Assembly: GCA_021811185.1 (NCBI GenBank)
Contig: JAJZPL010000004.1
Span: forward strand, 62,001-126,000
Origin: a bacterium
GTDB taxonomy: Bacteria; Elusimicrobiota; Elusimicrobia; Elusimicrobiales; UBA9959
Length of the DNA: 64,000 nt
Reading direction: 5' to 3'
The first letter of the stretch is position 1, and the number at the start of each line of letters is the position of its first letter. Below the pieces are notes generated by a model, which saw nothing but the letters and a program-made list of their open reading frames with translations, did no database searches and had not been told where the DNA came from. Shown here one piece after another: positions 26,617 through 49,516 of the stretch. The position numbers and the translations under genes were made by a program.

Positions 26617-26650
26617 AAATTTATCGAGGAGCCATGGGAATGGTGCAGCC

Positions 26651-26789
26651 GGGCGGGAGCGAGCCGGGCCGGGTTAGCAAAACCCTCACGGAGGCCGAGG
26701 CTTACGCAAGCGACGAGGCCGAGTGAGGAGGTGCGAGCACGGTGTGCGAGACACCGTGTTTTGCGTTCCGGCCCGGCTTGATCCCGCCC
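26651..26789 (+). repeat. Structured dispersed repeat, copy 1
   Basis: A roughly 139-nt imperfect palindrome. The outer arms 26651-26672 and 26768-26789 are complementary at 19 of 22 positions. Inside lie GCAAAACCCTCACGGAGGCC, a first hairpin (CCTCAC 26684-26689 with GTGAGG 26723-26728) and a second (GGTG 26730-26733 with CACC 26752-26755, then GCAC/GTGC around a GGT loop). Two more copies, at 48257 and 49374, share the core but have different, still paired, stem sequences. It fills the space between ogt and uvrC and contains no gene. Confidence 0.85.
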
Positions 26790-26791
26790 TC

Positions 26792-28096
26792 TCATCCTTC
26801 CAACTCCGAGCTGCCGCGTAGTTTTCGATGATATGTTATACCGAACCTGTGCACCTCGTCGCGCAGGGCCTGAAGCAGGCGCAGGCCGGGGTGGGCGCGG
26901 TCCAGCAGCAGCGGCTTGGCGAACTTGGGAGAGTAGATCTCCTCCAGCCGCTTGGCCAGGCTTATAACGGATATCTTTAGATCCGCCGCGCGGATGGCCT
27001 TCATGGCCGCCGCCAGCTGGCCGGGGCCGCCGTCTATCAGCAGCAGGTCCGGCAAAGGCTCTCCCGTCTTCTTCAACTGGGCCAGGCGCCGGCCCACTAT
27101 CTCCTCTATCATCGCGAAATCGTTGGAGCCTTCCGGCGCGTTCTTGAACTTGATCTTGTACTTGCGGTAATGGGACGTGTTCTTCTCGCCGCTGATAAAG
27201 CACACGGAGGAGCCAACGGCCTGCCTGCCGAAAAGGCTGGAGGTGTCGAAGGCTTCTATGTGCGTAGGGGGGGACGCCATTCCCAAAGCTTCCTTCAGCG
27301 CCGTCACCGCGCTGGTGCGCCCGGTGGCCTTTTCTATGAAATCCGGTTCCAGCTTTCCTACGAGCACGCGCTCCTCCATGTGGCCGAAAGCGTTCAGAAA
27401 GTCGCGGTACTGGGCGGCTTCCTCGTAGTTGAGCGCGGCCGCGGCCTTCTCCATTTTAATTTTGAACGAGGCGCGCAGTTTCTCGTAATCGCCCTTCAGG
27501 AAATCGGCTATGCGCATAGCCAGCGCGCCGTAGGCGGCCCTGGAGATCTTCCCGGCGCAGGGGGCGGTGCACTGCCCGGTGTGGAAATAAAGGCAGGACT
27601 TTATCTTGCGCTCGTCCAGCGGTTTCTGCAGGGAGAACTCCCACTGGCAGCGCCGCAGGTTAACGAACTTGATCCGCCAGAGGTAGCCCAGCAGTTTTTT
27701 CAGGGGCTCCAACTTAGGATAGGGGCCGAAGTAAAGGCCGCCGTCCCGCGCCTTCTGCCGGGTGAAGAGCAGGCGGGGAAAATCCTCTTTGGTGATCTTC
27801 AGCCAGGGATAGGATTTGGAGTCCTTCCACATCTCGTTGAAGAAGGGCTGCAGTTTGTAGATCAGCTGGCGCTCGGTGAGCAGCGCCTCGCGTTCGCTGG
27901 CGGAGGATATGTAGTCTATGCGGCGGATCAGCGCCACTAAATTAGGGATCTTCCAGCGGCGGTCGGAGGGGGTCTTCTGGAAGTACTGGCCCACACGGGC
28001 TCGCAGGTCCTTGGCTTTGCCGACGTAGAGCACCGCGCCGGAGACGTCGCGCATCAGGTAGACGCCGGGGGAAGCCGGCAGGTGCGAAAGGTCCAT
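26792..28096 (-). CDS. uvrC: Excinuclease UvrC, short form without the C-terminal helix-hairpin-helix
   Basis: UvrC makes both incisions in nucleotide excision repair. The 434 residues show the GIY-YIG nuclease domain (SPGVYLMRD..., YVGKAKDLRARV, residues 8-90), the four-Cys cluster region (RRCQWEF, KSCLYF, GQCTAPC), a UVR UvrB-binding motif near residues 210-240, and the RNase H-like endonuclease domain (EAFDTSSLFGRQAVGS, LLIDGGPGQL, RDEVHRFGITYHRK). It stops right after HRK...ELEG, where ordinary UvrC (about 600 residues) continues with two helix-hairpin-helix motifs; some inter-domain sequence is also shorter. Its start overlaps the murJ stop by 1 nt. Confidence 0.92.
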   Translation of the reverse strand: MDLSHLPASPGVYLMRDVSGAVLYVGKAKDLRARVGQYFQKTPSDRRWKIPNLVALIRRIDYISSASEREALLTERQLIYKLQPFFNEMWKDSKSYPWLKITKEDFPRLLFTRQKARDGGLYFGPYPKLEPLKKLLGYLWRIKFVNLRRCQWEFSLQKPLDERKIKSCLYFHTGQCTAPCAGKISRAAYGALAMRIADFLKGDYEKLRASFKIKMEKAAAALNYEEAAQYRDFLNAFGHMEERVLVGKLEPDFIEKATGRTSAVTALKEALGMASPPTHIEAFDTSSLFGRQAVGSSVCFISGEKNTSHYRKYKIKFKNAPEGSNDFAMIEEIVGRRLAQLKKTGEPLPDLLLIDGGPGQLAAAMKAIRAADLKISVISLAKRLEEIYSPKFAKPLLLDRAHPGLRLLQALRDEVHRFGITYHRKLRGSSELEG

Positions 28097-29670
28097 CAGA
28101 ACTTCCCGCCCGTTATAAGTTTTCTTTCCTCCACCCCGAGCCCCCTGAGCGACAGGAAATAGACCAGGACCGCGCCGGGAACGGCGGCGGCCGTAACGGC
28201 CAGCGGCCCCGAGGAGGTAAAGAGACGCCTGAGCGCCAGCGCCGTGCCCGCCGCGAGCAGCGCGGAGAGCGCCGGCCTGAAGAGCGGCAGGTCGCTGAAG
28301 GGGCTGAAGCCGGAATGTTTTTTAAGCGCCGCCAGGAAGGCCAGGGCCGCGGCCCAGGAACTTATGGAGGTGGCCAGCATCAGCCCGCCGGCGCCCATCG
28401 CGCGCATCAGCGGCAGGCAGAGCGCGGCGTTCAGCGCCAGCTGCGAGGAAATTATTATTAAAGGTTCCTTTTGCCTGCCCAGCGCGTACAGCGCCGAGGC
28501 GGACACTTTATTGAAGCCGTAGGCGGGCAGCCCCAGGGCCAGCCAGAAGAGCGCCCGCGAGGTGAGCAGGCTCTGTTCCTGCGAGAAGCGGCCGTGCTCG
28601 AACAGCGCGCGGCAGACCGGCAGCGCGGTGGCCGCTATCCCCAGCGCGGCGGGGAGCATGATAAGCCACGAGGAGACCAGCGCGGGTTTGAGGTGCCGCT
28701 TGAACCCTTCTATGTCCTTGGCCGCGGTCCTGGCTGAAAGTTCCGGCAGGGAAACCGCCGCGGCGGCGGCCGCGAAGAGCGAGACCGGGAACTGTACGAG
28801 CCGGGCGGAATTGTAGATGGCGGTAACGGAGCCGGCCGGCAGGAAGCTGGCGTAGGCCGTGTTTATCAGCATGGAGACCTGGTCCTGGGCCAGCGTAAGC
28901 GCGGCGGGGGCCGCGGCCAGCAGCGCGGGGGCGGCGGAGAGGTTCCTTAGGGGGTTGGAAAAGTTAAGGGCGAAGCCCTCTTTCCTGAGCGCCGGCAGCA
29001 GAGCCAGCGCCTGCAGCAGGCCGGAAGCCGAGGCGGCGGCGGCAAGCAGAATTATCTTGCCCCGCCCGTCCAGGCCGGCGAAGAAGCCGGAATGGAAGGA
29101 CAGCAGCAGTGCTATGACCGTAACGGAGAAGGCGGCGGGGGCCAGCGCCGGCAGGAAGAACCTGCGGGCCGAATTCAGCGCGGCGGTGAACAGGGCGGCC
29201 ACGTTCACGAACAGCAGGTGCGGCATCAGCACGGCCGCCAGCAGCGCGGTGAGTTCCAACTGGCCCGGTTCGCCCTTGAAGCCCCAGGCCGCCAGGGTTA
29301 CCATCTGGCGCCTGAAGATGATCCCGGCCAGGCCGATAAGGGCGGAAAGGGAGAAGATCACGGTCCAGGCGGAGGAGAAAAAGACCGCGGCGGCGGGCGC
29401 CGGCTTGGCTTTTTCCTTCTCCAGCAGGGGGATGAAAACCGCGTTCAGCGCGCCCTCGCCCACGGTGCGGCGGAAGACGTTCACCAGCCTGAAAGCCGCG
29501 TAATAGGCGTCCGCCAGGGCGCCGCCGCCGAAAAAAGCCACCATCAGGGCGTCCCGGGCGTACCCCAGGGCCTTGGTAATGAGGTTGGCCCCGGTCATGC
29601 CGGTCAGGCCGCGGGTAAAAGCGCCGTGCGCCGTAGGGACCGCCGTTCCCTCATTTGCTTTTTTTTTCAT
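28096..29670 (-). CDS. murJ: Lipid II flippase MurJ (MviN family)
   Basis: It flips the peptidoglycan precursor lipid II across the inner membrane. I start it at the ATG ending at 29670 (MKKKANEG); an in-frame ATG seven codons upstream (MRIVYHS) is possible, and the longer open frame beyond runs into rpsT on the other strand. The product has about 524 residues and 14 predicted membrane segments. Family features include TGMTGANLITKALGYARDALMVAFFG, ADAYYAAFRLVNVFRRTVGEGALNAVFIPL near the N-terminus, and ALGLPAYGFNKVSASALYALGRQKEPL. It is divergent from rpsT, with only 21 nt between the starts. Confidence 0.94.
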   Translation of the reverse strand: MKKKANEGTAVPTAHGAFTRGLTGMTGANLITKALGYARDALMVAFFGGGALADAYYAAFRLVNVFRRTVGEGALNAVFIPLLEKEKAKPAPAAAVFFSSAWTVIFSLSALIGLAGIIFRRQMVTLAAWGFKGEPGQLELTALLAAVLMPHLLFVNVAALFTAALNSARRFFLPALAPAAFSVTVIALLLSFHSGFFAGLDGRGKIILLAAAASASGLLQALALLPALRKEGFALNFSNPLRNLSAAPALLAAAPAALTLAQDQVSMLINTAYASFLPAGSVTAIYNSARLVQFPVSLFAAAAAAVSLPELSARTAAKDIEGFKRHLKPALVSSWLIMLPAALGIAATALPVCRALFEHGRFSQEQSLLTSRALFWLALGLPAYGFNKVSASALYALGRQKEPLIIISSQLALNAALCLPLMRAMGAGGLMLATSISSWAAALAFLAALKKHSGFSPFSDLPLFRPALSALLAAGTALALRRLFTSSGPLAVTAAAVPGAVLVYFLSLRGLGVEERKLITGGKF

Positions 29671-29691
29671 GGAATGATAAACTATACGCAT

Positions 29692-29988
29692 ATGGCAAAA
29701 CTCAAGACCGGAAGACACACCAGCGCGATCAAAGCCTGGCGCAAATCGGAAAAACTCGCCTCCAAGAACAGGGGCATGAAGACCAGGATCCACGACGCCT
29801 CGAAAGAATTCGGCGCTCTCGTCGAGAAAAAGGATATGGACAACGCGCAGAAGCTGCTGCCCAAAACCTATTCCATTCTCGATAAAGCCGCCAAATCCGG
29901 CACTATCCATTGGAAAGCGGCCGCGCGGAAAAAGTCCCGCCTGGCGGCGCGCATCAAGTCGATAGCGCAGAATCCTTCCGTAAAGTAA
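29692..29988 (+). CDS. rpsT: 30S ribosomal protein S20
   Basis: A 98-residue basic protein beginning MAKLKTGRHTSAIKAWRKSE and containing NRGMKTRIHDA and KAAKSGTIHWKAAARKKSRL, typical of S20, which binds 16S rRNA during early 30S assembly. I start it at ATG 29692; the frame is open much further upstream but that part runs antisense through murJ. No Shine-Dalgarno sequence is visible before the start. A strong terminator follows. Confidence 0.96.
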   Translation: MAKLKTGRHTSAIKAWRKSEKLASKNRGMKTRIHDASKEFGALVEKKDMDNAQKLLPKTYSILDKAAKSGTIHWKAAARKKSRLAARIKSIAQNPSVK

Positions 29989-30012
29989 CTTTCCCTGAAA
30001 AGAAAGAACAGA

Positions 30013-30041
30013 CCCCGGCCCGTTAACGGCCGGGGTTTTTT
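30013..30041. terminator. Terminator between convergent rpsT and holA
   Basis: CCCCGGCC (30013-30020), a CGTTAAC-centred loop and GGCCGGGG (30028-30035), followed by TTTTTT on the plus strand. It serves rpsT; on the minus strand it lies just after the holA stop at 30044. Confidence 0.9.
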
Positions 30042-30043
30042 CG

Positions 30044-31045
30044 CTACTTGCCGGCGGTGATCTCGTGCACCAGCTGGCGCACCACCAGCCCCGGCTCCCT
30101 CTTGGAGGAGGACTTCAGCAGTTCCTCCGCCTCCAGGCAGCGCCTGAGGCTGCGTAAAAGCTTTTCTTCCGTGTAGGAGCCGGCGTCCCGCAGGGCGGCG
30201 TGATACTGGCCGGGGGACATCCCGGCCTGGTACGCGGCGCCCGGGCCTTCCCCGGAGGCTGAGAGGCGTTTCACCTTCAGCAGCCTTTCCACCGATCGGG
30301 ACACCTGCGACAGCAGCGCCAGCGGCTCGTTGCCGGAGGCGAGCATTTTGGTAATAGCCTCCGCGGCCTGCGCCGGCCGCTTGCCGCATACCGCGTTGGA
30401 AAGTTCGAAAGGGTTCTGCGTCCTGGCGAACCCGGCCAGCGCCAGCGCGTCCTCGGGGGAGAACACCCGGTTCTGCCCGTGCATGTAAAGTACGATCTTC
30501 TCGGCTTCCCCGTCCAGGGTCACCGAGTCGGTGCCCAGCAGTTCCACCATCATCTCCAGCGCTTCGCCGTCGGTCCTGACGCCGCCGGCCAGCAGCAGGG
30601 AGTTCAGCCGTTCCACCGCCTGCGGCGCGGACATCGGGGCGAAATCCACCAGCGCCGCTTCCGCGCCGAGCGCGGCAGGGATAGGGTCCTGCTTCTCGCG
30701 CGGCCAGTCGGCCAGGATCAGCAGGCAGGCGCTCGGGCAGGGGTCCCCGAGGTATTCCAGCAGCGCCTTCATAGGCTCTTTCTTGAGCTTCTCGGCGCGC
30801 TTTATGGCCACGAAGCGCACCTCGGCCAGCATGGGCGCGGTGCGGGCTTCGTCCAGGGCCTGGGCCATATCGGTGGTCTCCGCGTCCCTGAGGGAAAAGT
30901 TGAACGACTCCGGTTTGAAGATCCCTTCCAGCTTTTTAAGCGCGGCTTCCTTCAGCGCGGTCTCCTCGCCGCAGAGGTAATACACCGGGCGGGTTTTATT
31001 TTTGGCCCATTCTTCGGCCAGCGCTCTGGGGGTTAAAGTCTGCAT
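30044..31045 (-). CDS. holA: DNA polymerase III subunit delta
   Basis: The clamp-opening subunit of the clamp loader. The 333-residue protein has the HolA pattern: PVYYLCGEETALKEAALKKL near the N-terminus, VRFVAIKRAEKL, a central DFAPMSAPQAVERL, LLGTDSVTLDGEAEKIVLYM, and a helical C-terminal collar domain (NEPLALLSQVSRSVERLLKVK). The family is divergent, but the order of features and the length fit. It is the last gene of the long minus-strand run and begins 6 nt after lptE. Confidence 0.88.
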   Translation of the reverse strand: MQTLTPRALAEEWAKNKTRPVYYLCGEETALKEAALKKLEGIFKPESFNFSLRDAETTDMAQALDEARTAPMLAEVRFVAIKRAEKLKKEPMKALLEYLGDPCPSACLLILADWPREKQDPIPAALGAEAALVDFAPMSAPQAVERLNSLLLAGGVRTDGEALEMMVELLGTDSVTLDGEAEKIVLYMHGQNRVFSPEDALALAGFARTQNPFELSNAVCGKRPAQAAEAITKMLASGNEPLALLSQVSRSVERLLKVKRLSASGEGPGAAYQAGMSPGQYHAALRDAGSYTEEKLLRSLRRCLEAEELLKSSSKREPGLVVRQLVHEITAGK

Positions 31046-31051
31046 TCGGCG

Positions 31052-31645
31052 TTAAGGGTTTACCGTGGCCGAAGAGGCCTGCACTTCGTTGGGCGCCGGC
31101 ATCTTCTTATAGGAGGCGCTGGAGACGGAGCCGAAGCCCGAAACGGTCCGGAGCACCACGTCCTTGGCCAGGATCTCCCAGATGGCTTCCCGCGCCTGCT
31201 CTTCCGTAAGCCCGCCGGGCAGGTTAGCCGCGGAGTACATCTTGGTCACCTGCAGCGCGGGCTCTTCCCAGATGTAGCGGTTCTGTTCCCTGTCCAGCAG
31301 GCGCACCGCGGCGATCACGTTCAGCTTGTAGACGGTGGGGACCATGTTAACGTCGTACTGGATCGGGGTAAGGATGTAGTGGCTGATCTCGCCCACTATC
31401 ACGCCCTGCGCCGAGTTCTCGGGGGAAATAGAATACTCCCCGTTCTTGAGGAATTCGTCTATCACCTTGAGGGTGAGCTTCTCTTCCAGGCCGAACTGCT
31501 GCGTTTTGTTGGCGAAAGGGCGCACCGCTATGCGCTTGATGTTCGCCGGCATGATCTGCGCGGCGGGCTTGTAAACTATGTCCGAGGTCGTGGACGAGCA
31601 GGCCGCAAGCCCCAGCGCCGCCGTTAACAGGATGGTCTTCTTCAT
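31052..31645 (-). CDS. lptE: LPS-assembly lipoprotein LptE-like
   Basis: An outer-membrane lipoprotein that plugs the LptD barrel in LPS export. I start it at the ATG ending at 31645, preceded by GGGGGAGATATT, giving 197 residues; the frame upstream runs into leuS. The lipobox LAAC is at residues 13-16. The LptE-type region follows, with IKRIAVRPFANKTQQFGLEEKLTLKVIDEFLKNG shown here only as its order of motifs: IAVRPFANKT, then LEEKLT, then a TRYD-like beta-sheet part (GEISHYILTPIQYD). It lies between leuS and holA, the same neighbourhood as in many proteobacteria. Confidence 0.85.
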   Translation of the reverse strand: MKKTILLTAALGLAACSSTTSDIVYKPAAQIMPANIKRIAVRPFANKTQQFGLEEKLTLKVIDEFLKNGEYSISPENSAQGVIVGEISHYILTPIQYDVNMVPTVYKLNVIAAVRLLDREQNRYIWEEPALQVTKMYSAANLPGGLTEEQAREAIWEILAKDVVLRTVSGFGSVSSASYKKMPAPNEVQASSATVNP

Positions 31646-31665
31646 AATAATATCTCCCCCGTTCT

Positions 31666-34178
<2,513 letters not shown>

Positions 34179-34182
<4 letters not shown>

Positions 34183-34838
34183 TTTGAAGCCTCCACGTGC
34201 TTTTTCCTGAGCCGGTCGAAAATTATGCTGACGGTGCCTTTGCCCGCCTTTACTTTGTAGCTGGCCGGGTCGGCGCCTTTGGGCACGGCCATGACCCGCT
34301 GGCGGCGCCGCGTGAACGAGGAAGCGGCCATGCTGCCGTCCGGCTGCAGTTGCTGCCTGGTCTCCTGCCGCGCGTAGTTCATCTTGATGCGGCTGCCGGC
34401 TACGTCCACTTTCATGGATTCTTCCGCGTTTTCCGGGGTTTTGAGGTTGACCGTTATGGAATCTTCATCGGAGACCACTTCGGGCGTCAGGTCGGCCGCG
34501 GAGAGTTTCTTCGAGGCCCATTTTCCGCAGGAGTCGTTGAACTTCTTGCTGTTCCGGCCGCCCAGCTTTTCGTTTATGCGTTTCTGCGCCAGTTCGATGT
34601 CGCGGATCGGGTCGTCCGAGTTGGCGAAAAAAGAGTCGGGGAACACGGAATCCAGGTCCTTGGAGGTGACCGGCTTGTCCGACTCCAGCTTGTCGCTGAT
34701 CTGGCCGATCAGGGAGTCCAGGTTCTTTATCATGTCCTTGCTCAGCTGCTCGGCGTCCACGTTATCGGCAGGCTGGTCCCCGGCGCGGGCCGCGGGGGAA
34801 AAGGCGAGGAAAGCGGAGATCAGGAAAAAATAACGCAT
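34179..34838 (-). CDS. Secreted protein with alpha-crystallin-like C-terminal half
   Basis: A 219-residue protein with a signal peptide ([20 protein letters not shown]). A helical segment at residues 30-110 precedes a region from about residue 120 resembling the small heat-shock (Hsp20/alpha-crystallin) beta sandwich: [24 protein letters not shown], and [28 protein letters not shown]. If so, it would be a periplasmic chaperone-like protein, unusual because Hsp20 proteins are normally cytoplasmic. The similarity is by pattern only. It overlaps leuS by 4 nt and is probably co-transcribed with it. Confidence 0.65.
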
Positions 34839-34893
34839 ATTTATAAATATTTTATCAAATAAGAAGGGGCTAATACGGGCGGGCTGCCCTGGC

Positions 34894-35310
34894 TTACAGC
34901 TTCTTAAGGATCCTGGCGGTTTTCAGGTTCATCGCGCGGCGGAGCTCCGGAGTGCTGTCGTCCATGCCGGCCAGGTGCAGCGCGCCGTGCACGGTAAGTA
35001 CCAGCAGTTCCGCCAGGGCGGAGTGGCCCATGGTTTTGGCCTGCCTGGCGGCCACGGGCACGCAGACGTAGATCTCGCCCCAGTCGGCTCCCGGCACGGG
35101 GGAGTGGGGGAAGTTGAAGGCGATCACGTCGGTAAGGCGGTCCTTGCCCAGGAAGCGGCGGTTAAGTTTTTTTATGCCCGGTCCGTCCGTGAAGACCAGG
35201 TTCACCGGTTTGCGGGCGTGCGCGCCCAGGGCGAGCGCCGCGGCTTTCCTCAGCGCGGCGGTTTCGGCGGAAGCCGGGGTTTTAACTTCGAAGAAAACGT
35301 TTATAGGCAT
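34894..35310 (-). CDS. ybeY: Endoribonuclease YbeY, third metal ligand altered
   Basis: YbeY matures 16S rRNA and takes part in ribosome quality control. The 138 residues keep the family plan (KKLNRRFLGKDRLTDVIAF, then VHGALHLAGMDD near residues 107-118). The usual zinc motif is HGxLHLxGYDH; here His108 and His112 are present but the third His is Asp118, a change that could alter or remove metal binding. It begins 2 nt after the phoH stop, the usual phoH-ybeY arrangement. Confidence 0.9.
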   Translation of the reverse strand: MPINVFFEVKTPASAETAALRKAAALALGAHARKPVNLVFTDGPGIKKLNRRFLGKDRLTDVIAFNFPHSPVPGADWGEIYVCVPVAARQAKTMGHSALAELLVLTVHGALHLAGMDDSTPELRRAMNLKTARILKKL

Positions 35311-35311
35311 G

Positions 35312-36277: not shown

Positions 36278-36286
36278 CGTTCCCCG

Positions 36287-37495: not shown

Positions 37496-37524
37496 GAGTA
37501 TCTCCTTGGTTGAGAAACTTCTTT

Positions 37525-39803: not shown

Positions 39804-39885
39804 GCGCCCTCCGCTGGGATTTTTTGGAATCTAACCGTAAAATTATATACTTTTAAAAGTCTTATTAAAAGGTCTGTAAACAACG

Positions 39886-40332
39886 ATGAAAAAAATGAAA
39901 CAGAAAGGCGCCCGCCTGGCGCGCAGCTCCAGCCTGGCTTCGCTGGCCAAAATAATGGATATTCTCCTTTCCCCGGGCGGCTGCCCCTGGGACCGCCGGC
40001 AGACACATTCCACGCTGATAAAATACCTGAAGGAAGAGTCCGGCGAGGCCGCGCAGGCCGTGCGCAGGAAGGACTGGAATAATTTGAAGGAAGAGCTGGG
40101 CGACGTGCTGCTGCAGGTGGTGTTCCACAGCGCGCTGGCCCGCCGGGAAGGGCTCTTCACGCTGGGCGACGTGATCCGAACCGTCAACTCCAAGATGGTG
40201 CGCCGCCACCCGCACGTTTTCGGCGGGGAAAAACTGCGGGGCAAGCTGAAGACGCCCGCTCAGGTCCTGACGGAGTGGGCGAAGATAAAGAAAGGCGAAA
40301 AGGCCCGCGCCGCGAAAAGGAAAAAGAATTGA
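39886..40332 (+). CDS. mazG: MazG-family nucleotide pyrophosphohydrolase, single domain
   Basis: It hydrolyses (d)NTPs to monophosphates, a housecleaning activity. The 148 residues hold one MazG domain: GCPWDRRQTHSTLIKYL, the metal-binding EESGEAAQAV and EELGDVLLQVVFHS, and RRHPHVFGG. The common MazG has two such domains in about 260 residues, so this is a short form. It shares a TTGA junction with nagZ. Confidence 0.93.
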   Translation: MKKMKQKGARLARSSSLASLAKIMDILLSPGGCPWDRRQTHSTLIKYLKEESGEAAQAVRRKDWNNLKEELGDVLLQVVFHSALARREGLFTLGDVIRTVNSKMVRRHPHVFGGEKLRGKLKTPAQVLTEWAKIKKGEKARAAKRKKN

Positions 40333-41804: not shown

Positions 41805-43294
41805 ACGAAGCAGCCGCTTTTGAAAAAATAACAGGGCTCATGCCGGTGGATTACGCCATACTCGGCATAGCCGTCGCCGCCCTTTTCGTGATCTCCTACT
41901 TTAAAGGCCGTGAGGAAACGGATACGAAGGATTACTTCCTGGGCAACCGGAAAACCCCGGTCTGGGTCGGCACGCTTTCCTTCGTGGCCACCGAGATCAG
42001 CGCGATGACCATCGTGGGCATCCCGCCGATCGGCTTCACCGAGAACTGGCAGTACATGCAGTTCTTCATCGGCTCGGCGCTCGCCAGGATCTTCATCGCT
42101 TTCTTCTTCATCCCGGCCTTCTACAAGTTCAACTGCACCACCATCTACGAATTCCTGAAGCACCGCTTCGGGGCCGAGACGCAGTACGCCGGCTCCGCGT
42201 TCTTCTTCGTCACCCGCCTGTTCGCTTCGGGCGTGCGGCTGTACGCGGCTTCGCTGGCGGTGTCGGTGATCATGGGCTGGCCGCTGGCCAACACCATCGG
42301 CTTCTTCACGGTTGTCAGTATCATTTTCATAGGCTTCGGCGGCATCAAGGCCGTGATGTGGACCGGCACTTTCGAGACCATTACCTTTTACCTGGCCGGC
42401 GGCGCGGTGGCCGCCTTCCTGGTTATGCACATCGACGGCGGCTTCGCGGGCGCCTGGCATACGGCGAGCGAGGCGGGGAAACTCTCCATCTTCAACTTCG
42501 GCTGGGACCTGAAGAACCCTAACGTGCTGTGGGGCGCGGTGCTCAACGGCGTGTTCGGCTCCATGGCCTCTTTCGGCACGGACCAGGAACTGATGCAGCG
42601 CCTGCTCACGCTGGAGACGCGGCGCGAGAGCCAGAAGACGCTGATCGCCACCATTTTCGCCAGCGTCCCGCTGACCGCGCTTTACCTGGGGATAGGCACG
42701 CTGCTGTTCGTGTTCTACAAGCAGAACCCGGCCATGCCGCTGCCGGCTAACGCCGACAAGATCCTGTCCCACTTCACCATCTACGTGCTGCCCGCCGGCC
42801 TGAAAGGCCTGGTGCTGGCGGCGGTGGTGCTGGCCAGCATCGACTCGCCGCTCAGTTCGCTGTCCTCTTCTTTCATCACGGATATCTACAGGCCGCTGAT
42901 AAACAAGACGGCGGAGGAGAAGCATTACCTGTTCGTTTCGCGTCTGAGCGTGGTGGGGTTCGGCATCCTGCTGGCCGGCATAGCCTGGCTCTGCGCGGCC
43001 GGGTCCGGGCGCATGCTGTGGCTGGCTTTCAAGGTGAACGGCGTGACCGCGGGCTCGCTGCTCGGCGTGTTCCTGCTGGGGCTGATGACCAAACGCCCGG
43101 GCAACCGCTCCAACGTGCTGGCCATGTTCATCAGCGCGGCGCTGGCCGGGCTGATCCTGTACCTTTCCGAGAAGGGGCTGGCGCCCATCGGCTGGAGCTG
43201 GATCATCGTCATCGGGACTATCTCCACTTTCACGCTGGGGTGGTTCATGTCCCCGCTGGAACCTAAATTCTCGAGGGCGCCCGCTCCCAAGTAA
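41801..43294 (+). CDS. Sodium/solute symporter (SSS family)
   Basis: A 497-residue transporter with about 13 membrane segments. Family features are KDYFLGNRKTPVWVGTLSFVATEISAMTIVG split here as DYFLGNR, WVGTLSFVATEISA and VGIPPIGF, plus GAVLNGVFGSMASFGTDQ and LASIDSPLSSLSSSFITDIY. The substrate cannot be determined; SSS members carry sugars, amino acids, vitamins or sialic acid. ATGA overlap with nagZ suggests co-translation and perhaps uptake of an amino-sugar-related compound, which is inference. A terminator follows. Confidence 0.93.
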   Translation: MNEAAAFEKITGLMPVDYAILGIAVAALFVISYFKGREETDTKDYFLGNRKTPVWVGTLSFVATEISAMTIVGIPPIGFTENWQYMQFFIGSALARIFIAFFFIPAFYKFNCTTIYEFLKHRFGAETQYAGSAFFFVTRLFASGVRLYAASLAVSVIMGWPLANTIGFFTVVSIIFIGFGGIKAVMWTGTFETITFYLAGGAVAAFLVMHIDGGFAGAWHTASEAGKLSIFNFGWDLKNPNVLWGAVLNGVFGSMASFGTDQELMQRLLTLETRRESQKTLIATIFASVPLTALYLGIGTLLFVFYKQNPAMPLPANADKILSHFTIYVLPAGLKGLVLAAVVLASIDSPLSSLSSSFITDIYRPLINKTAEEKHYLFVSRLSVVGFGILLAGIAWLCAAGSGRMLWLAFKVNGVTAGSLLGVFLLGLMTKRPGNRSNVLAMFISAALAGLILYLSEKGLAPIGWSWIIVIGTISTFTLGWFMSPLEPKFSRAPAPK

Positions 43295-43311
43295 GGCGCT
43301 GACGGCAAAAG

Positions 43312-43343
43312 AAAAACCCCGCGGACTGCCGCGGGGTTTTTTT
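43312..43343. terminator. Terminator between the symporter and the YtxH gene
   Basis: AAAAACCCCGCGG (43312-43324), loop ACTG, CCGCGGGGTTTTTTT (43329-43343). The arms are perfectly paired and A/U-flanked on both sides, so it can act for both convergent genes. Confidence 0.93.
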
Positions 43344-43361
43344 ATGGAGCGGTCAGACTTC

Positions 43362-43583
43362 TTAGTTGACGTGCTTCATCAGCTGGTCTTTGCGGTGCTT
43401 TATTTCAGCTTCCAGCTTTTCTATCTTCTCTTTGGCTTTTTCCTTGGTCTCTTCCATCCATTCGCCGAGCTCGGCGCGGGTTTCTTTCCCGGCCTTGGGC
43501 GCGAACAGGATGCCGAGGGCCGCGCCGATAAGGCCGCCGACCACGAACGCTCCGACTATTTCCCCGCCTCTGTGTTCAGACAT
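43362..43583 (-). CDS. YtxH-domain small membrane protein
   Basis: A 73-residue protein with one Gly-rich membrane segment (IVGAFVVGGLIGAALGILFAPKAGKETR) described by its motif GILFAPKAGKETR, typical of YtxH-like general-stress proteins, followed by a charged coiled-coil tail (KEKAKEKIEKLEAEIKHRKD). GGAGGACATC lies upstream. Its promoter (TTGACA at 43645-43650 and TATAAT at 43624-43629 on the minus strand, 15-nt spacer) overlaps the divergent promoter of the next gene. Confidence 0.85.
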   Translation of the reverse strand: MSEHRGGEIVGAFVVGGLIGAALGILFAPKAGKETRAELGEWMEETKEKAKEKIEKLEAEIKHRKDQLMKHVN

Positions 43584-43623
43584 GATGTCCTCCAGAACTA
43601 AATCATTAAAACCTTCCTTTAAT

Positions 43624-43660
43624 ATTATACATTGCCGTCTCCTTTGTCAATTCTTATAAT
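43624..43660. promoter_or_regulatory. Overlapping divergent promoters
   Basis: Minus strand: TTGACA (43645-43650) and TATAAT (43624-43629), 15-nt spacer, for the YtxH gene. Plus strand: TTGCCG (43632-43637), 17-nt spacer, TATAAT (43655-43660), only 7 nt before ATG 43668. The two polymerase sites overlap and should compete; the plus-strand transcript should be leaderless. Confidence 0.65.
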
Positions 43661-43667
43661 ACTATCG

Positions 43668-44948
43668 ATGAAAACGCTGCTCTTCGCGCTGGCGCTGGCC
43701 CTGGTCCCGTCCGCGGTCCTGGCCTACCCGCACGACGCGCAGCTGAGCGCCAAGCTCAAAAAAGAGTTCGAGGCGGAACTCAGTTCCGCCGCCGCCGGGC
43801 GCGAACTGCTGGGCAGGCTCAAAAAAGCCGGCCCCGGCTACGCGGCGCTTAAAGTGCTGGTGCGGCGCGACCCCTCGGATTGCCTGGCCTGGTTCGACCC
43901 CGCCGCCAACGCCGTCTATTTCAACTCCCGGTTCATCCTGAAATTCTTCGCCGCCAGGGGCTTCAAGGACCCCCAGGTTGTGGAGGTGCTCTGGGACAAC
44001 AGGAAGGTGCGCGCGGAGCTGGTGAAGTACGCCAATCCCGTCTATCTGCACGAGCTGGTGCACGCGGAGCAGTGCTACCTCTACCCGGAGTACCGCAGGG
44101 ACGCCGGGGCCAACCCGCTGGAGTTCGAGTACGAAGCCTACCTCACCGAGGATATGTACGTGCACGAGCGCATGAAGGCCGCTCCGAAGCTGCTTAAGGA
44201 TTTTATCCGGGGCGCCTACACCGACCTCTACACGGCCAACGTCTTCGGCAGCTACTTCACCCTCTCGCTGGACCCGGAACGGTACAAGGAAAAGATACGC
44301 CGGTACTACGAGGAGGGGGTGGGCGGGTACGTAAGCCTGGAGAAAGCCGAGACCGAGCGCAGGAACGGGGTGGAGGATTCCAGGATCCTGGCTTACGCCT
44401 CTGGCGACCTTAAGGGGCTCAAGGGGGAAACCACCTCGCTGGAGCGGCTTAAGGCCCAGGAAGAGGAATACGCCCGTTTCCTTAAGGATTTTTACGCCAG
44501 CCGCTGGCCGGCTTTCAGCGCCGACGCCCTGGCCTTCGTGGGGGGCATTGCCCTGGAGGAGAAGAATTACCCGCTGGCGCTGGACTGTCTGGCCGTGGCG
44601 GACGCGAATTCCGCCGGTTCCGGCCTGCCCGCCGAGGCGCTGGAGGCCCTTAAGACCAAGGGCGCGGTGGCCGTGCTGGAGACCGCCTCTTTTATCCGCG
44701 ACAATTCGAAGAAGATGGGCCTGGAATTGCTGAGCCAGCACCTGAAAGCGCTGGAAAAGGCCTGCCTGGCCACCAAAAGGCCCTTTCCGGAGGACCTTGT
44801 CCCGCTCAGGGACAAGACTTACCCGAAGGCGGTCGCTTATTTCGCTAAGAAATACGGCGCCGAGAAGGACCAAAGCCGCAGGGATTACTACAAGGAAAGC
44901 CTGGATTATTTCTCCGCCCGCTCGGGGCCCGCGGATGCCGTAAAATAA
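43668..44948 (+). CDS. Secreted protein with zincin-like HELVHAEQ motif
   Basis: I start it at ATG 43668, which opens with a signal peptide (KTLLFALALALVPSAVLA) and gives 426 residues. The motif HELVHAEQ (HExxH) at about residue 127, followed by EFEYEAYLTEDMYVHER, resembles the metal site of a gluzincin-type peptidase, where the later Glu could be the third ligand. The rest is helical and Lys/Ala/Glu-rich; no named peptidase family is recognised. It is predicted to act in the periplasm or outside the cell. The -10 box lies 7 nt before the start, implying a leaderless mRNA. Confidence 0.7.
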   Translation: MKTLLFALALALVPSAVLAYPHDAQLSAKLKKEFEAELSSAAAGRELLGRLKKAGPGYAALKVLVRRDPSDCLAWFDPAANAVYFNSRFILKFFAARGFKDPQVVEVLWDNRKVRAELVKYANPVYLHELVHAEQCYLYPEYRRDAGANPLEFEYEAYLTEDMYVHERMKAAPKLLKDFIRGAYTDLYTANVFGSYFTLSLDPERYKEKIRRYYEEGVGGYVSLEKAETERRNGVEDSRILAYASGDLKGLKGETTSLERLKAQEEEYARFLKDFYASRWPAFSADALAFVGGIALEEKNYPLALDCLAVADANSAGSGLPAEALEALKTKGAVAVLETASFIRDNSKKMGLELLSQHLKALEKACLATKRPFPEDLVPLRDKTYPKAVAYFAKKYGAEKDQSRRDYYKESLDYFSARSGPADAVK

Positions 44949-44961
44949 AAAATCTTTTTCC

Positions 44962-44990
44962 TTGAATTGACTTCTCTAATTGAGTAAATT
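44962..44990 (+). promoter_or_regulatory. Possible promoter of the aminotransferase/BMC operon
   Basis: TTGAAT (44962-44967) with a 17-nt spacer to TAAATT (44985-44990), in an AT-rich gap before the aminotransferase. An alternative pairing, TTGACT (44967-44972) with TACTTA (44990-44995), also has a 17-nt spacer. Either is only a moderate match. Confidence 0.4.
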
Positions 44991-45072
44991 ACTTATAGCG
45001 TTACCGGCCTTAAGGCGGCGCCATTTCCAAGGCCATGCCTCTAAGAGCCCAAACCAAGCAGCGGAGGAACTT

Positions 45073-46302
45073 ATGATCGACATCGCGAAGAATATCGCCA
45101 CCGCCCCCAGACGCACCAAAGCTTCCGTAATACGCGAACTTCTGAAGACCACCAACGTCCCCGGCATCATCTCCTTCGCCGGCGGCCTGCCTTCCCCCGA
45201 CAATTTCCCCTACGACTTCGTGGCCGATACCGTGAAAGAGATCATGGCCAAGAAGGGCAAGATAGCCCTGCAGTACGGCCCCACCGACGGGCTGCCCGAA
45301 CTGAAGGAAGAATTCATAAAGTTCCTGAAGAAGCACGAGGGCGTGGACGCCAAGCCCGAGAACCTCATCATCACCACGGCCAGCCAGCAGGCGCTGGACA
45401 TGGTCGGCCGCCTTTTCATCGACGCCTCCGACCCCGTGCTGGTGGAGAAGCCCAGCTACATGGGCGCGCTGCAGGTGTTCCGCTCCTACGGCGCGGAGTT
45501 CATCGGCGTAAAGCTCGAGGACGACGGCATCAGCACCGTGGAGCTGGAAGAGAAACTCGCCTGGCTCAAGAGCCAGGACGAGCACTACAAGTTCCTGTAC
45601 CTGGTGCCCGATTTCCAGAACCCCAGCGGCGTCACCCTTTCCGCCGAGAAGCGGACCAAGATCATCGAGCTCTCCGAGAAGTACAACGTGGCCGTGATCG
45701 AGGACTCCCCTTACCGCCAGATCCGCTTCGAAGGGACCGCCCCCAAGATGCTGTACCGCCTGGACCAGGAGACGCACAAGACCGACAACATCATCTCGCT
45801 GTTCACCTTCTCCAAGACCTTCGCCCCCGGCCTGCGCCTGGGCATCATCCTGGGCCACCCCCAGATCATCAAGAAGATGGAGATCCTCAAGCAGTCGCTG
45901 GACCTCTGCTCCTCCAGCCTGAACCAGCTGATCGCCGCCGAGTTCCTGCGCAGCGGCTACTTCGAGAAGCATATCGAAGTGATCAAGAAAGATTACCGCG
46001 TGAAGAAGAACACCATGGTGGCCGCGCTGGAGAAGTACATGCCCGAGGGCGTCACCTGGACCAACCCGGAAGGCGGCCTGTTCCTGTGGGTGCGCCTGCC
46101 GGAGGGCATGAGCGCCGACGACATGTTCCAGGACGCGCTGAAGGAGAACGTGGCCTACGTGATCGGCTCCGCTTTCCATTCGGACGGCTCGGGCAAGAAC
46201 ACCATGCGCCTTAACTTCTCTTTCGCCACCCCGACGCAGATAGACGAGGGCATCAAGCGGCTCTCCTCCGCGGTGAAGAAGCGCCTGGTAACCGCCAAAT
46301 AA
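45073..46302 (+). CDS. PLP-dependent class I/II aminotransferase
   Basis: I start it at ATG 45073, with gcggaggaac upstream, giving 409 residues. The sequence has the fold-type I pattern of the 2-aminoadipate/MocR-like aminotransferase group: GIISFAGGLPSPDNFP, YGPTDGLPELKEE, ASQQALDMVGRLF, VPDFQNPSGVTLS, EDSPYRQIRFEG, the PLP-lysine segment FTFSKTFAPGLRLG and GGLFLWVRLP. The substrate is not determinable. It is 11 nt upstream of the pduS-like gene, so it may belong to the BMC operon, perhaps forming an aldehyde precursor or acting independently in amino-acid metabolism. Confidence 0.92.
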   Translation: MIDIAKNIATAPRRTKASVIRELLKTTNVPGIISFAGGLPSPDNFPYDFVADTVKEIMAKKGKIALQYGPTDGLPELKEEFIKFLKKHEGVDAKPENLIITTASQQALDMVGRLFIDASDPVLVEKPSYMGALQVFRSYGAEFIGVKLEDDGISTVELEEKLAWLKSQDEHYKFLYLVPDFQNPSGVTLSAEKRTKIIELSEKYNVAVIEDSPYRQIRFEGTAPKMLYRLDQETHKTDNIISLFTFSKTFAPGLRLGIILGHPQIIKKMEILKQSLDLCSSSLNQLIAAEFLRSGYFEKHIEVIKKDYRVKKNTMVAALEKYMPEGVTWTNPEGGLFLWVRLPEGMSADDMFQDALKENVAYVIGSAFHSDGSGKNTMRLNFSFATPTQIDEGIKRLSSAVKKRLVTAK

Positions 46303-46313
46303 CTATAAACTGA

Positions 46314-47660
46314 ATGTCAGACTTCTCAGCCGAATTCAGCAGGGACCTGCGCAGCGCCGGAGTAGTGGGAGCCGGCGGCGCGGGTTTCCCGTCCTACGTT
46401 AAAGCGCAGGGCAGGGCCGGGTACGCCCTGGTGAACGCGGCCGAGTGCGAGCCGCTGCTGAAGAAAGACCAGAAGATCCTGGAGTATTTCCCGGCCAAGG
46501 TCTTCGACGGGCTGGAACTGCTGATGCGGGCCGTGGGCGCCGAAAAGGGCATGCTCTGCATCAAGAAGAAGCACGAGAAGATCATCCCGCGCCTGGAAGA
46601 GATAGCTAAAAGCCGCAAGAATATCACCGTGCTGAAGATGGGGGACTATTATCCCGCCGGCGACGAGCAGTGCCTGGTCTACGAGGCCACCGGCCGTATA
46701 GTGCCGCCGGGGGGGATCCCGCTGGACGTGGGCTGCGTGGTCAGCAACGTGGAGACCCTTTACAACGCCGCCTTCCGCGGCGTGCCCGTGACCGAAAAAT
46801 TCATCACCATCGCCGGCGCCGTTAAAAAGCCCGCCACCTTTAAAGTGCCCGTGGGAATAACCTGGGCGGAGGCCGTTGAGCTCGCCGGCGGTTTCACCGT
46901 GAAGGAACCCGCTTATATCGACGGCGGCCCGATGATGGGTAAGGTTGCCACGGATTTTAGCGCGCCGGTCACCAAGGCCTCGGCCGGCATCATAGTCCTC
47001 CCGAAGAACCATCCCCTTATCGTTAAGAAAGCCCTGGGCCGCCCGGTATTCTCCCGCATCAACCGCTCCGCCTGCGACCAGTGCTCTTTCTGCACCGAGT
47101 TCTGCCCGCGCTACCTGCTGGGGCACAACGTGCAGCCGCACCGCGTGATGCGCAGCCAGCTTTTCTCCGCCGGGCCGGAGCACAAGCTGCACAGCCAGTA
47201 TGCCCTGCTCTGCTGCGAATGTTCGCTTTGCTCCCTTTATTCCTGCCCCGAGGGGCTGAACCCGCGCGAGGCCTGCGTGGCGGCCAAGTCCGACCTGCGG
47301 GAACTTAAGATGGGCTTCAAGAATTCCGGGCTGAACAAGGGCGGCGCGCCCAAGGCGCACCCCGTGCGGGAATTCCGCAAGGTGCCGGTGTCCAAACTGG
47401 TGCAGCGGCTGGGGCTGACGGACTACAGCAAGGACGCGCCCTGGACCGAAGTGAACTATAAACCTTCCAAGGTCAGAATTTTAATGAGCCAGCACATCGG
47501 CTCGCCCTGCGCGCCCGCTGTAAAAGAAGGGCAGCGCGTGCAGAAAGGCGCGGTGGTGGGGGACGTTCCCGCCGACAAGCTGGGCTGCCCGGTGCACGCG
47601 AGCATCGCCGGCACCGTGACGAAGGTCAACGAAAAATACGTGGAAATACAGGCGGACTGA
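46314..47660 (+). CDS. pduS: PduS-like electron-transfer flavoprotein (RnfC/SLBB family)
   Basis: In the propanediol BMC, PduS is a flavin and Fe-S protein linked to cobalamin reduction and redox exchange across the shell. The 448 residues show the glycine-rich N-terminus (VVGAGGAGFPSYVK), RnfC-type AAECEPLLKKDQ, an SLBB region, and two ferredoxin-type Fe-S motifs: Cys254, 257, 260 and 264 (CDQCSFCTEFCPR), and Cys300-311 (CCECSLCSLYSCP). A C-terminal barrel-sandwich part follows. It is 4 nt from the pduT-like gene, as in known loci. No B12-dependent diol dehydratase is present here, so a general NADH-oxidising role is more likely. Confidence 0.9.
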   Translation: MSDFSAEFSRDLRSAGVVGAGGAGFPSYVKAQGRAGYALVNAAECEPLLKKDQKILEYFPAKVFDGLELLMRAVGAEKGMLCIKKKHEKIIPRLEEIAKSRKNITVLKMGDYYPAGDEQCLVYEATGRIVPPGGIPLDVGCVVSNVETLYNAAFRGVPVTEKFITIAGAVKKPATFKVPVGITWAEAVELAGGFTVKEPAYIDGGPMMGKVATDFSAPVTKASAGIIVLPKNHPLIVKKALGRPVFSRINRSACDQCSFCTEFCPRYLLGHNVQPHRVMRSQLFSAGPEHKLHSQYALLCCECSLCSLYSCPEGLNPREACVAAKSDLRELKMGFKNSGLNKGGAPKAHPVREFRKVPVSKLVQRLGLTDYSKDAPWTEVNYKPSKVRILMSQHIGSPCAPAVKEGQRVQKGAVVGDVPADKLGCPVHASIAGTVTKVNEKYVEIQAD

Positions 47661-47664
47661 ATTT

Positions 47665-48213
47665 ATGCTGAACGCAATAGGCGGGGTTGAACTTTCCAGC
47701 GTGGCCAAGGGCATGGAAGCGGCCGACGCCATGCTGAAGACCGCGAACGTGAAACTGATCCTGGCGCGCTCCGTGTGCCCGGGCAAGTACATCGTGATGG
47801 CCGCCGGCGACGTGGGCGACGTAAGCGCCGCGGTGGAGGCCGGAGCGGCCAAGGCCGCGCACGCGCTGGTGGACAGCTTCGTTATCCCCAATATCCATCC
47901 CGAGGTCTTCCCGGCCATCGAGGGCACCACCGTGGTGGACACTCTGGAGTCCCTCGGCATCATAGAAGCTTTTTCCATCTCCGCCCTTATCGAGGCCGCC
48001 GACGCCGCCGTGAAAGCCGCGCCGGTGAAGCTGATGGAGATCCGCCTGGCCATGGCCCTGGGCGGCAAGGCCTTCGTGACCCTGACCGGGTCCGTGGGCG
48101 CGGCCGAAACCGCCGTGGCGGCCGGCGCCGCCGTGGTGGCCAAGAAAGGCCTGCTGGTGGAAAAAGTCGTAATACCCCAGCCCCGCCAGGAACTGCTGCG
48201 GGAGCTGATCTAG
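47665..48213 (+). CDS. pduT: PduT-like tandem BMC-domain shell protein (BMC-T)
   Basis: Two BMC domains in 182 residues (first about 1-85, second about 95-180, with [26 protein letters not shown] as its start, here abbreviated by SLGIIEAFS) form a pseudohexameric trimer in the shell. The pore-loop sequence VCPGKY places a Cys at residue 38, the position that binds a [4Fe-4S] cluster in characterised PduT. Next to pduS, this supports an electron conduit through the shell. The BMC operon is interrupted directly after this gene by a repeat-flanked AT-rich insert. Confidence 0.93.
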   Translation: MLNAIGGVELSSVAKGMEAADAMLKTANVKLILARSVCPGKYIVMAAGDVGDVSAAVEAGAAKAAHALVDSFVIPNIHPEVFPAIEGTTVVDTLESLGIIEAFSISALIEAADAAVKAAPVKLMEIRLAMALGGKAFVTLTGSVGAAETAVAAGAAVVAKKGLLVEKVVIPQPRQELLRELI

Positions 48214-48256
48214 TTTTAGAAGTTACTCGCCACTGGGGGTAGTTATCACATATTTG

Positions 48257-48395
48257 CCGCGGGCGCCACGGGGACCGGAACGCAAAACACGGGGTCGCGA
48301 ACACCGTTCGCGCCCCTCCTCACTCGGCCTCGTCGCTTGCGCAAGCCTCGGCCTCCGTGAGGGTTTTGCTAATCCGGTCCCCGCGTCGCCCGCGG
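48257..48395 (-). repeat. Structured dispersed repeat, copy 2 (inverted)
   Basis: It has the same core as the copy at 26651, in the opposite orientation. The outer arms 48257-48279 and 48373-48395 are complementary at 21 of 23 positions, with a sequence quite different from the outer arms of the other copies. The inner hairpins (CCTCAC/GTGAGG and GGGG/CCCC with GCGAAC/GTTCGC) are kept. It forms the left boundary of the AT-rich nuclease gene. Confidence 0.85.
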
Positions 48396-48440
48396 AGTTT
48401 TTCTCGCAGACTCAATCACTATCTGACTTCTGACTCTGAA

Positions 48441-49349
48441 ATGATTGAAATATATCCAGTCTACCGTTATGAAAGTTCGGGTAAACTAATCGCTGCTATA
48501 GGTGGTGGAGACTATATACAACTTAGCAGTAATTTAACCTTTTTAGGAAAGGGATCTCATAAGGTTAATTACAAAACTGCTCTTCGGCGCACACCATATA
48601 AAATAGAAGTTGAGGTCGACAAAGGCCACGTTAAAATACTCCAAACATGGGACGAAAGCAGGTTCCCACAAAAGTCCTCAGACCCAAATGCTCCACTTGA
48701 ATGTAGAATTGATGTCTGTCCCTCTCAAGTATTAAATGAGGCGGAGAGGAAATATGTTAAATATTCAGATGGGCACCCATTTGGGTATGGCTTGTTCTAT
48801 GTGGCTTTTATATTAATTTTTATGGCAGGTTCTTGGGGTTGGTGGCCTGTTGTGGCGTCGGTTTCCCTCGGAGTAATTATTATCCTTCTTACTAAGACCA
48901 CAGGAAGCCCAACTCTAATACGATTGGTAATGGAGGCAAAAAGTCGCCTTCGTAAATCTCTTGAGAGTAAAATGCTTCAAAGCATGAGTGACATTAGCTG
49001 GTGGTCCAAACTTAGTGGAGTTGAGTTTGAGCGTGCTGTAGCTGCAATTTATCAGGAACAAGGATTCAGTGTTGAATTCACCCCGCAGACTAAGGATGGG
49101 GGTGTAGACTTAATTTTGAGAAGGAATAACCAAATATCGATTGTCCAGTGTAAACGATATTCAGGTAGTGTTGGCGTAGCGGCCATTAGGGAACTTGTTG
49201 GGGTACGCGCCTCTTGGCCAGAGGCTAAGGATGCAATTCTTGCGACTTTATATGATTTCTCTAGCGGGGCACAAACATTTGCAATAAAACATAATGTTAC
49301 ACTTTTTTCAGTAGCAAAGGACTATCTAAAAACAAATTTTCGGGTTTAG
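48441..49349 (+). CDS. Membrane-anchored Mrr-type restriction-endonuclease-like protein, AT-rich
   Basis: I start it at ATG 48441 (302 residues); a longer start at 48357 would read through the repeat. Residues 1-110 are a polar domain of unknown type. Two membrane segments lie at about 114-130 and 133-151. The C-terminal half is a PD-(D/E)XK nuclease of the Mrr_cat type: GVEFERAVAAIYQEQGFSVE, catalytic Asp223 in GGVDLILRR, and Gln236-Cys237-Lys238 in VQCKRY. Codon use and base composition are markedly AT-rich compared with all neighbours, indicating horizontal acquisition. It is flanked by inverted copies of the structured repeat and splits the BMC operon. A defence role is plausible. Confidence 0.85.
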   Translation: MIEIYPVYRYESSGKLIAAIGGGDYIQLSSNLTFLGKGSHKVNYKTALRRTPYKIEVEVDKGHVKILQTWDESRFPQKSSDPNAPLECRIDVCPSQVLNEAERKYVKYSDGHPFGYGLFYVAFILIFMAGSWGWWPVVASVSLGVIIILLTKTTGSPTLIRLVMEAKSRLRKSLESKMLQSMSDISWWSKLSGVEFERAVAAIYQEQGFSVEFTPQTKDGGVDLILRRNNQISIVQCKRYSGSVGVAAIRELVGVRASWPEAKDAILATLYDFSSGAQTFAIKHNVTLFSVAKDYLKTNFRV

Positions 49350-49373
49350 AAGATATACGTCAAGGTGTGAACC

Positions 49374-49516
49374 TGCGATGGTCGGCGTGGGGGCCGGATA
49401 AGCAAAACCCTCACGGAGGCCTGAGCTTACGTAAGCGCGAAGGCCGAGTGAGGAGGGGCGCGAACGGTGTTCGCGACCCCGTGTTTTGCGTTCCGGCCCC
49501 CACGCCGCCCAGCGCC
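49374..49516 (+). repeat. Structured dispersed repeat, copy 3
   Basis: The arms 49384-49398 and 49492-49506 are perfectly complementary over 15 nt, and weaker pairing extends the stem outward to 49374 and 49516. The core GCAAAACCCTCACGGAGGCC is identical to copy 1. The second hairpin has GGGG/CCCC and GAAC/GTTC around a GGT loop, where copy 1 has GGTG/CACC and GCAC/GTGC. It is inverted relative to copy 2 and forms the right boundary of the nuclease gene. Confidence 0.85.

Follow-up and report, generated by a model that had tools for sequence, protein, structure and literature searches.

The subject of this study is a family of repeated, folding sequences, which I will call Y-elements. Three copies lie in a stretch of 64,000 nucleotides (hereafter the window) from an Elusimicrobiota genome (order Elusimicrobiales, lineage UBA9959; contig JAJZPL010000004.1, positions 62,001 to 126,000). 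In each Y-element, a head of two hairpins sits on an outer stem at least about 20 bp long. Y-elements form a family whose fold is kept through covarying changes and whose outer stem has a recurrent mismatch. They stand in inverted pairs, enclose genes as cargo in the window's own genome, and are present at a site in some species and absent from it in others. The best explanation, to which I give about an even chance of being correct, is that they are genus-wide, interspersed, non-autonomous DNA elements, similar to repetitive extragenic palindromes (REPs), that are recognized by their structure, move rarely and are able to carry genes. They probably act like a mobile site that works as a folded strand, and they are probably members of none of the families against which they were tested. 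The original prediction, made from sequence alone, described a structured repeat in three copies; that observation is confirmed, and the finding is larger than first stated.

The Three Copies in the Window

The positions of the copies, and of the genes near them, are given in Table 1. One 20-mer, GCAAAACCCTCACGGAGGCC, has exact matches at 26677 (+), 48350 (-) and 49402 (+); even with 3 mismatches allowed, the window contains no other (expected number 0.02). These matches and the boundaries assigned by a covariance model (R1, described below) agree in placing three copies of about 140 nt where they had been claimed to lie. The minimum-energy folds of copies 1, 2 and 3 (-93.1, -101.6 and -100.5 kcal/mol) are lower than any found in 200 shuffles. 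In each, the long outer stem leads through an internal loop to a GCAAAAC/GTTTTGC stem and then to the two-hairpin head, in keeping with the claimed arrangement of two hairpins inside an outer stem; in copy 1, the outer stem pairs approximately 26651-26673 with 26767-26789 and encloses the head. The double changes first described, GGTG/CACC to GGGG/CCCC and GCAC/GTGC to GAAC/GTTC, are present in the sequence.

Table 1. Y-elements of the window, genes near them, and examples of a second subfamily from other loci.
Feature	Position	Strand	Remarks
Y-element copy 1	26650..26792	+	Solo; R1 128 bits, E 4.6e-23; fold z -7.33
Y-element copy 2	48254..48396	-	Left half of outward (-,+) pair; R1 134.1 bits, E 2.6e-24; fold z -8.70
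Y-element copy 3	49375..49517	+	Right half of pair; R1 132.1 bits, E 6.2e-24; fold z -9.47
O6-methylguanine methyltransferase-type gene	26314-26616	-	Beside copy 1; Pfam
UvrC-domain gene	26792-28096	-	Beside copy 1; Pfam
Cargo gene enclosed by copies 2 and 3	48441..49349	+	302 aa, C-terminal Mrr-type restriction endonuclease domain
Triosephosphate isomerase (TIM) gene	49599-50378		Copy 3 lies upstream; Pfam
Second-subfamily Y-elements	L220:13184-13323; L195:2909-3051; L203:2227-2386		Examples; there are others

Size and Distribution of the Family

I will refer to the window's own genome (3.09 Mb) as G000 and to its genus as g1; the other genomes compared are one per species. Seven places in G000 match a 16-mer pattern when 2 mismatches are allowed, 6 of them full copies and 1 a chance match, and a 14-mer from the right end finds 38 exact places and 14 with one mismatch. 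Forty-nine copies were extracted, of which the 42 without nested insertions were aligned (alignment A2) and the other 7 excluded. R1, built from A2, has 84 matches in G000 at E ≤ 0.01 and 65 at E ≤ 1e-6 (one of them partial), many of the weaker matches being the opposite strand of strong copies. The genome thus holds many more copies than the three first noticed.

Matches to R1 occur in all 32 of the g1 genomes, from 9 to at least 53 apiece when 53 candidates are scored; scoring a larger number of candidates brings out 70 in G014 and 95 in G018 at E ≤ 1e-6. Beyond the genus, a match is present in one of five other genera of the family (in G033) and in none of 24 genomes from another family of the order. 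The lone G033 copy retains the head and has lost the outer stem, a single case, which suggests a copy that is no longer maintained. The expectation that relatives' copies keep their pairing therefore holds overall within the genus and fails for the outer stem of this one copy from another genus.

A pattern scan of named genomes returned at least 116 stretches, and the titles of the 80 listed read Elusimicrobia, Elusimicrobiales, Elusimicrobiota or plain "bacterium". The viral contigs, plasmids and phages searched hold no Y-element match. Rfam 15, at its gathering cut-offs, matches nothing in the window or in 10 further loci, in agreement with the earlier statement that no known family fits; the best result of a lax search was a microRNA model at 19.9 bits, against a cut-off of 168. 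No such family was found in literature on Elusimicrobia repeats, integrons, cassettes, miniature inverted-repeat transposable elements (MITEs) and REPs, a search outside which subscription literature largely lay.

Among the weaker R1 matches there is a second subfamily, with a similar head and another stem, GGGTATGGG...CCCATACCC; in G018, 3 of the 11 pairs aligned have it as one of their two members in place of the first subfamily. Yet other stems are found in L230 and L232. The stem is followed in many copies by an outer tail like CCCGACT(TCG/GGG)CATCTCGCGG, and several pairs have this tail at their two outer ends; copies 1 to 3 have no outer tail, nor do many others. The boundary on the side of the enclosed DNA, or cargo, reads by eye as GGAG in many copies and as other letters in some. 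A short REP-like hairpin, GTGGAGCGNAGCGACAC, occurs at 14 places in G000 (for example, C36:27106-27122 and C66:1552-1568), 10 of them inside Y-element matches.

Covariation and the Outer Stem

Scored with the RNAalifold structure, in figures that overstate independence because A2 is made of related copies and is also the source of the structure, 96.2% of the cells of A2 are paired (shuffles 80.5%, slid versions at most 47.0%), double changes occur in 28 of 43 pairs (shuffles 17.3) and fill 223 cells (shuffles 56.8), and the covariation score is 0.378 (shuffles 0.101, slid versions at most 0.077). No shuffle of 500 was as high on any of five measures, so the covariation proposed from three copies is a strong signal in 42. 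When the arms of the 21 outer pairs are exchanged, pairing falls from 94.0% within copies to 72.6% between them, and 5.5% of swaps reach the mean of the copies' own arms.

The composition of the stem was tabulated for 218 distinct copies from all loci, about 20 of which seem shifted by one position in register. The stem is nearly all Watson-Crick, with two irregularities. Position 8, counted from the inner end (A2 columns 14/131), has G.U in 56 copies and A.C in 3. Position 10 (columns 12/133) is non-Watson-Crick in 106 copies, mostly through mismatches other than G.U or A.C. Within A2, columns 12/133 are unpaired in 31 of 42 copies, A.G being commonest (23); copies 1 and 2 of the window carry the mismatch, and copy 3 is paired there. 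Over the 20 positions other than position 8, G.U (107) and A.C (95) are about equal. The counts are 47 and 39 among 2,586 cells at positions 0-7, 9 and 15-17 (12 positions picked after the profile had been seen), 41 and 14 at positions 11-14, and 17 and 34 at the frayed outer end (18-19). The excess of G.U over A.C is therefore confined to the irregular part of the stem, position 8 and positions 11-14.

An Orthologous Site

Both genes that flank copy 1 (ogt and uvrC, Table 1) are present in 24 of 30 loci, and the element lies between them in 8 species and is absent in 16. Fifteen of the element-free loci are short and, by eye, without a palindrome; the remaining one, in G027, holds a different insert that is itself palindromic. 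Because 15 of 16 empty sites show no palindrome, the stem belongs to the element, and a model in which insertion into an existing palindrome explains the variable stem was rejected. An apparent target hairpin around one pair in G014 proved to be sequence common to other element ends.

The eight orthologous outer stems differ in sequence, and no 5' arm has a better partner than the 3' arm of its own copy (mean -48.3 kcal/mol, as against -26.3 for swapped arms); one swap, the 5' arm of G024 with the 3' arm of G005 (-41.3), is stronger than the arms of G005 itself (-39.5). Five of the eight are perfect at the usual mismatch position. Pairing is thus kept through many double changes, at an orthologous position included, as had been claimed from the window. 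To the eye, the sequences next to the stems appear homologous, which favors a single old insertion, although the site may instead have received repeated insertions.

Inverted Pairs and Their Cargo

Neighboring matches less than 1,500 bp apart are, with few exceptions, in the order (-,+), with 3' ends outward: 16 of 16 in G000 (one match at E 4.3e-5 included), all 18 among the 85 of 95 matches listed for G018, and 7 of the 8 among the 65 of 70 listed for G014. In 182 loci from G000 and other species, many of them chosen for holding a copy, the order is (-,+) in 27 of the 31 cases closer than 450 bp and in 14 of the 20 at 450-1,500 bp, and (+,-) in 2 and 1, respectively. Against an expectation of one quarter, the excess of (-,+) has p values of 6e-13 and 3e-5, for loci that are related.

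The gaps within pairs in G000 are of two kinds, 11 of 433-1,093 bp (GC 0.38-0.48) and 5 of 30-81 bp. Among the matches listed in G018, no gap is longer than 48 bp and 14 of the 18 measure 39-48 bp, and the linkers of 11 pairs share a loose pattern. Nine of the 11 gene-sized cargos in G000 were run against Pfam: one has a clear domain (the Mrr nuclease enclosed by copies 2 and 3), two have matches below cut-off only and six have none; no transposase was found in these nine. Several cargos end, by eye, in a terminator-like hairpin and T-run. A nucleotidyltransferase-like cargo protein at L194:3087-3449 matches Pfam Polbeta below cut-off and the first 99 positions of the PADLOC model Specificity_I (E 5.7e-13). 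Apparent overlaps of Y-elements with genes were set aside as upstream over-extensions or wrong-frame calls by a simple gene caller.

The Mrr assignment comes from Pfam (Mrr_cat, E 1e-24, on a longer open reading frame at 48357-49349) and from PADLOC (Mrr-like nuclease models, best E 2.7e-11). The middle of the protein appears hydrophobic by eye, and the region has a GC content of 0.41, as against 0.61 for the window. The flanks of 29 other TIM loci contain no Mrr match; there, the gap between TIM and the bacterial microcompartment (BMC) gene is short or has other DNA inside, or the BMC gene lies beyond the flank. Two of the other genomes (L120 and L122) have a different long palindrome, GGGGTCAGGTCTTGCATTTCAA...TTGAAATGCAAGACCTGACCCC, upstream of TIM. 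In the window, 46314-48213 holds an RnfC-like gene adjoining a BMC shell gene.

The original prediction set the repeat apart from a simple transposon end. In doing so, it understated the mobile-element character that appears in the copy number, the presence and absence between species, the inverted pairs and the AT-rich genes enclosed in some of them.

Selection on a Fold, Template Switching or RNA

A complementary stem need not imply selection. Y-elements might be passive palindromes, old insertions whose arms are kept complementary mainly by template-switch copying, without selection on the fold. This mechanism, template switching during replication, is described in PMC8794818, and it would suit a stem that is nearly all Watson-Crick, with G.U about equal to A.C apart from position 8, as well as the rewritten arms at the ogt-uvrC site and the five stems there with no mismatch at the usual place. 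I consider this explanation unlikely. Correction of one arm by the other should erase the recurrent mismatch and the G.U position; moreover, the head covaries too, and the lone G033 copy has lost its stem. The argument from the mismatch has its limit, since five of the eight orthologues of copy 1 are perfect and copy 3 is paired.

The elements could also be a structured noncoding RNA, or an element of 3' untranslated regions, in many paralogous copies. In favor of RNA are the covariation of both head and stem, the better fit of the given strand (R1 matches these copies weakly on the reverse strand), and the G.U excess at position 8 and positions 11-14. In an RNA helix, however, G.U should be distinctly better tolerated than A.C, and elsewhere in the stem the two are about equal and both rare. 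TATAAT (up to 1 mismatch) lies within 60 nt upstream of 22 of 64 copies, as against 21.7 in shuffled sequence, so there is no excess of -10 sequences; downstream it is found for 21 of these copies (15.3 in shuffled sequence), and for 25 when read inward from their 3' side, the last being a small unexplained excess. No orientation rule relative to genes was seen by eye, and neither the inverted pairs nor the empty Rfam search is what RNA would lead one to expect. I regard this explanation as quite doubtful.

Because G.U is about as rare as A.C outside position 8, a folded DNA site is favored over RNA. The profile of the stem suggests folding at the level of DNA, with one specific irregularity, or upkeep by template switching, rather than an ordinary RNA, though it is no proof. 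The prediction had offered a noncoding RNA or a folded single-strand DNA site; the second fits better and the first less well.

Evidence against Movement and the Search for an Enzyme

A number of observations count against rare movement of structure-recognized DNA elements with their cargo. The strand-specific G.U position is also compatible with RNA. For 26 of the 38 copies in G000 with alignable flanks, a locus of another species carries a copy at that site, an upper view since loci were chosen for holding a copy and two queries match 21 and 55 loci through repeats; shared sites of this sort suggest long residence more than active movement. None of the 25 listed (-,+) gaps in G014 and G018 exceeds 93 bp, and the gene-sized cases in the 182 loci number 11 in G000 and 3 elsewhere (GC 0.53, 0.38 and 0.57). 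Because the listed gaps of relatives are short, gene-sized cargo is largely peculiar to G000. No target-site duplication was recognized in the flanks read, from one genome per species. Twenty Y1-transposase loci (106 kb) hold no Y-element, where about 2 would be expected from density, and 3 of 25 g1 genomes have no Y1_Tnp domain yet at least 23 Y-element matches.

A REP-associated tyrosine transposase (RAYT) was rejected as the mobilizing enzyme because those 20 loci are without Y-elements; 12 overlapping smaller Y1 loci contain two weak matches only (20.2 and 17.7 bits). The Y1_Tnp domain itself is found in 22 of 25 g1 genomes and in 2 of 16 from the other family.

A second enzyme considered is a small GIY-YIG nuclease, whose gene is present in 28 of 32 g1 genomes (C32:12552-12812 in G000), apparently mostly at one conserved place with tRNA and glmU-like neighbors (by eye, among the loci listed). 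Y-elements abut the gene, which lies near 1490-1760, in 12 of 30 loci (L401-L430), or 13 if a match cut by a contig end is counted. R1 finds them on both sides in 2 of the 12, and the arrangement is (-)gene(+) in 10, all except L404 and L426. A scan for inverted repeats found them upstream of this gene in 11 of 29 loci and downstream in 4 of 29, as compared to 2 of 29 and 1 of 29 for TIM and 3 of 60 random stretches. The candidate is weakened by the 4 genomes of 32 that have Y-elements and in which the gene was not found, and by the 17 or 18 of 30 loci with no Y-element. The nuclease may mobilize Y-elements, but it is a lead only.

Comparison with Known Mobile Sites

REPs, the bacterial interspersed mosaic elements (BIMEs) and REPINs are interspersed palindromes that occur in inverted pairs with a short variable linker, show complementary changes and are recognized through the fold of one strand, and the Escherichia coli REP stem has a conserved mismatch required for TnpA-REP activity (PMC8266576, PMC3733652 and PMC2817692). 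Y-elements are like them in their inverted pairs with a short linker (the 39-48 bp gaps of G018), conserved stem mismatch and complementary changes. They are unlike them in length (about 140 nt, rather than 20-50 nt), in their branched head, in having no GTAG-type tetranucleotide (GGAG stands at the cargo side of many copies), in their absence from Y1-transposase loci and in the genes that pairs enclose in G000. The subterminal hairpins of IS200/IS605 elements have an irregular base, as Y-elements do, and are recognized as single-stranded DNA (PMC8266576), but the two Y-elements of a pair are mutually inverted, and the nine gene-sized cargos checked lack a transposase.

Y-elements are like MITEs in being short, non-autonomous and numerous, with inverted ends; they are unlike them in that the ends show compensatory change and no parental transposon was found here. 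If Y-elements were the ends of MITEs or of classical transposons, the conserved outer tail would be the terminal inverted repeat and the fold incidental. The tail does stand at both outer ends of several pairs, but many copies are without it, the three of the window included, no target-site duplication was recognized, and the fold is far better kept than the tail. The explanation has very little probability.

The attC sites of integrons are recognized by structure, as a folded single strand with unpaired bases, and their cassettes carry small orphan genes. That Y-elements are an attC analogue, as structure kept over sequence, irregular stem positions and small orphan cargo genes might indicate, is hardly credible, given their branched head, sites inverted around genes rather than in direct arrays, and several cargos with terminator-like ends of their own (by eye). 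Integron integrase (TIGR02249) is above cut-off in 0 of 32 g1 genomes, and membership in integrons is refuted by its absence from the genus; no attC-type core triplets were recognized, by eye only, at Y-element ends. A genome of another genus of the family, without Y-element matches, has an integron integrase over the curated cut-off (G034:C99:3711-4634, 410 bits).

How Y-Elements May Move, and What They May Mean

If Y-elements are indeed DNA elements recognized by structure, then replication or repair would make a strand single, allowing one strand to fold, and a putative enzyme would bind the head and the mismatch of that folded strand. Rare movement of a pair would bring the enclosed DNA along, and gene cargo would be acquired in this way. 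Settled copies would be long-lived, their stems drifting yet staying complementary through selection on folded DNA, with template-switch repair probably assisting in the upkeep.

A more specific possibility is that Elusimicrobiota have a new kind of gene-cassette mobility, in which paired sites of large, forked, folded-strand DNA, conserved in structure rather than in sequence, flank genes and move them by means of some enzyme other than a RAYT or an integron integrase. I consider it rather improbable, and it is weakened by the listed pairs of G014 and G018, which are without gene-sized cargo. The GIY-YIG nuclease, whose gene is repeatedly abutted by Y-elements, may be the enzyme in such a system.

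Y-elements are a large family of repeats across the sampled genus that the library of RNA families had missed. At the orthologous site, where the fold has been kept while the stem was rewritten, they provide a test bed for distinguishing selection from template switching. Their pairs also suggest an uncharacterized route by which single genes, a restriction-type nuclease among them, enter these genomes.

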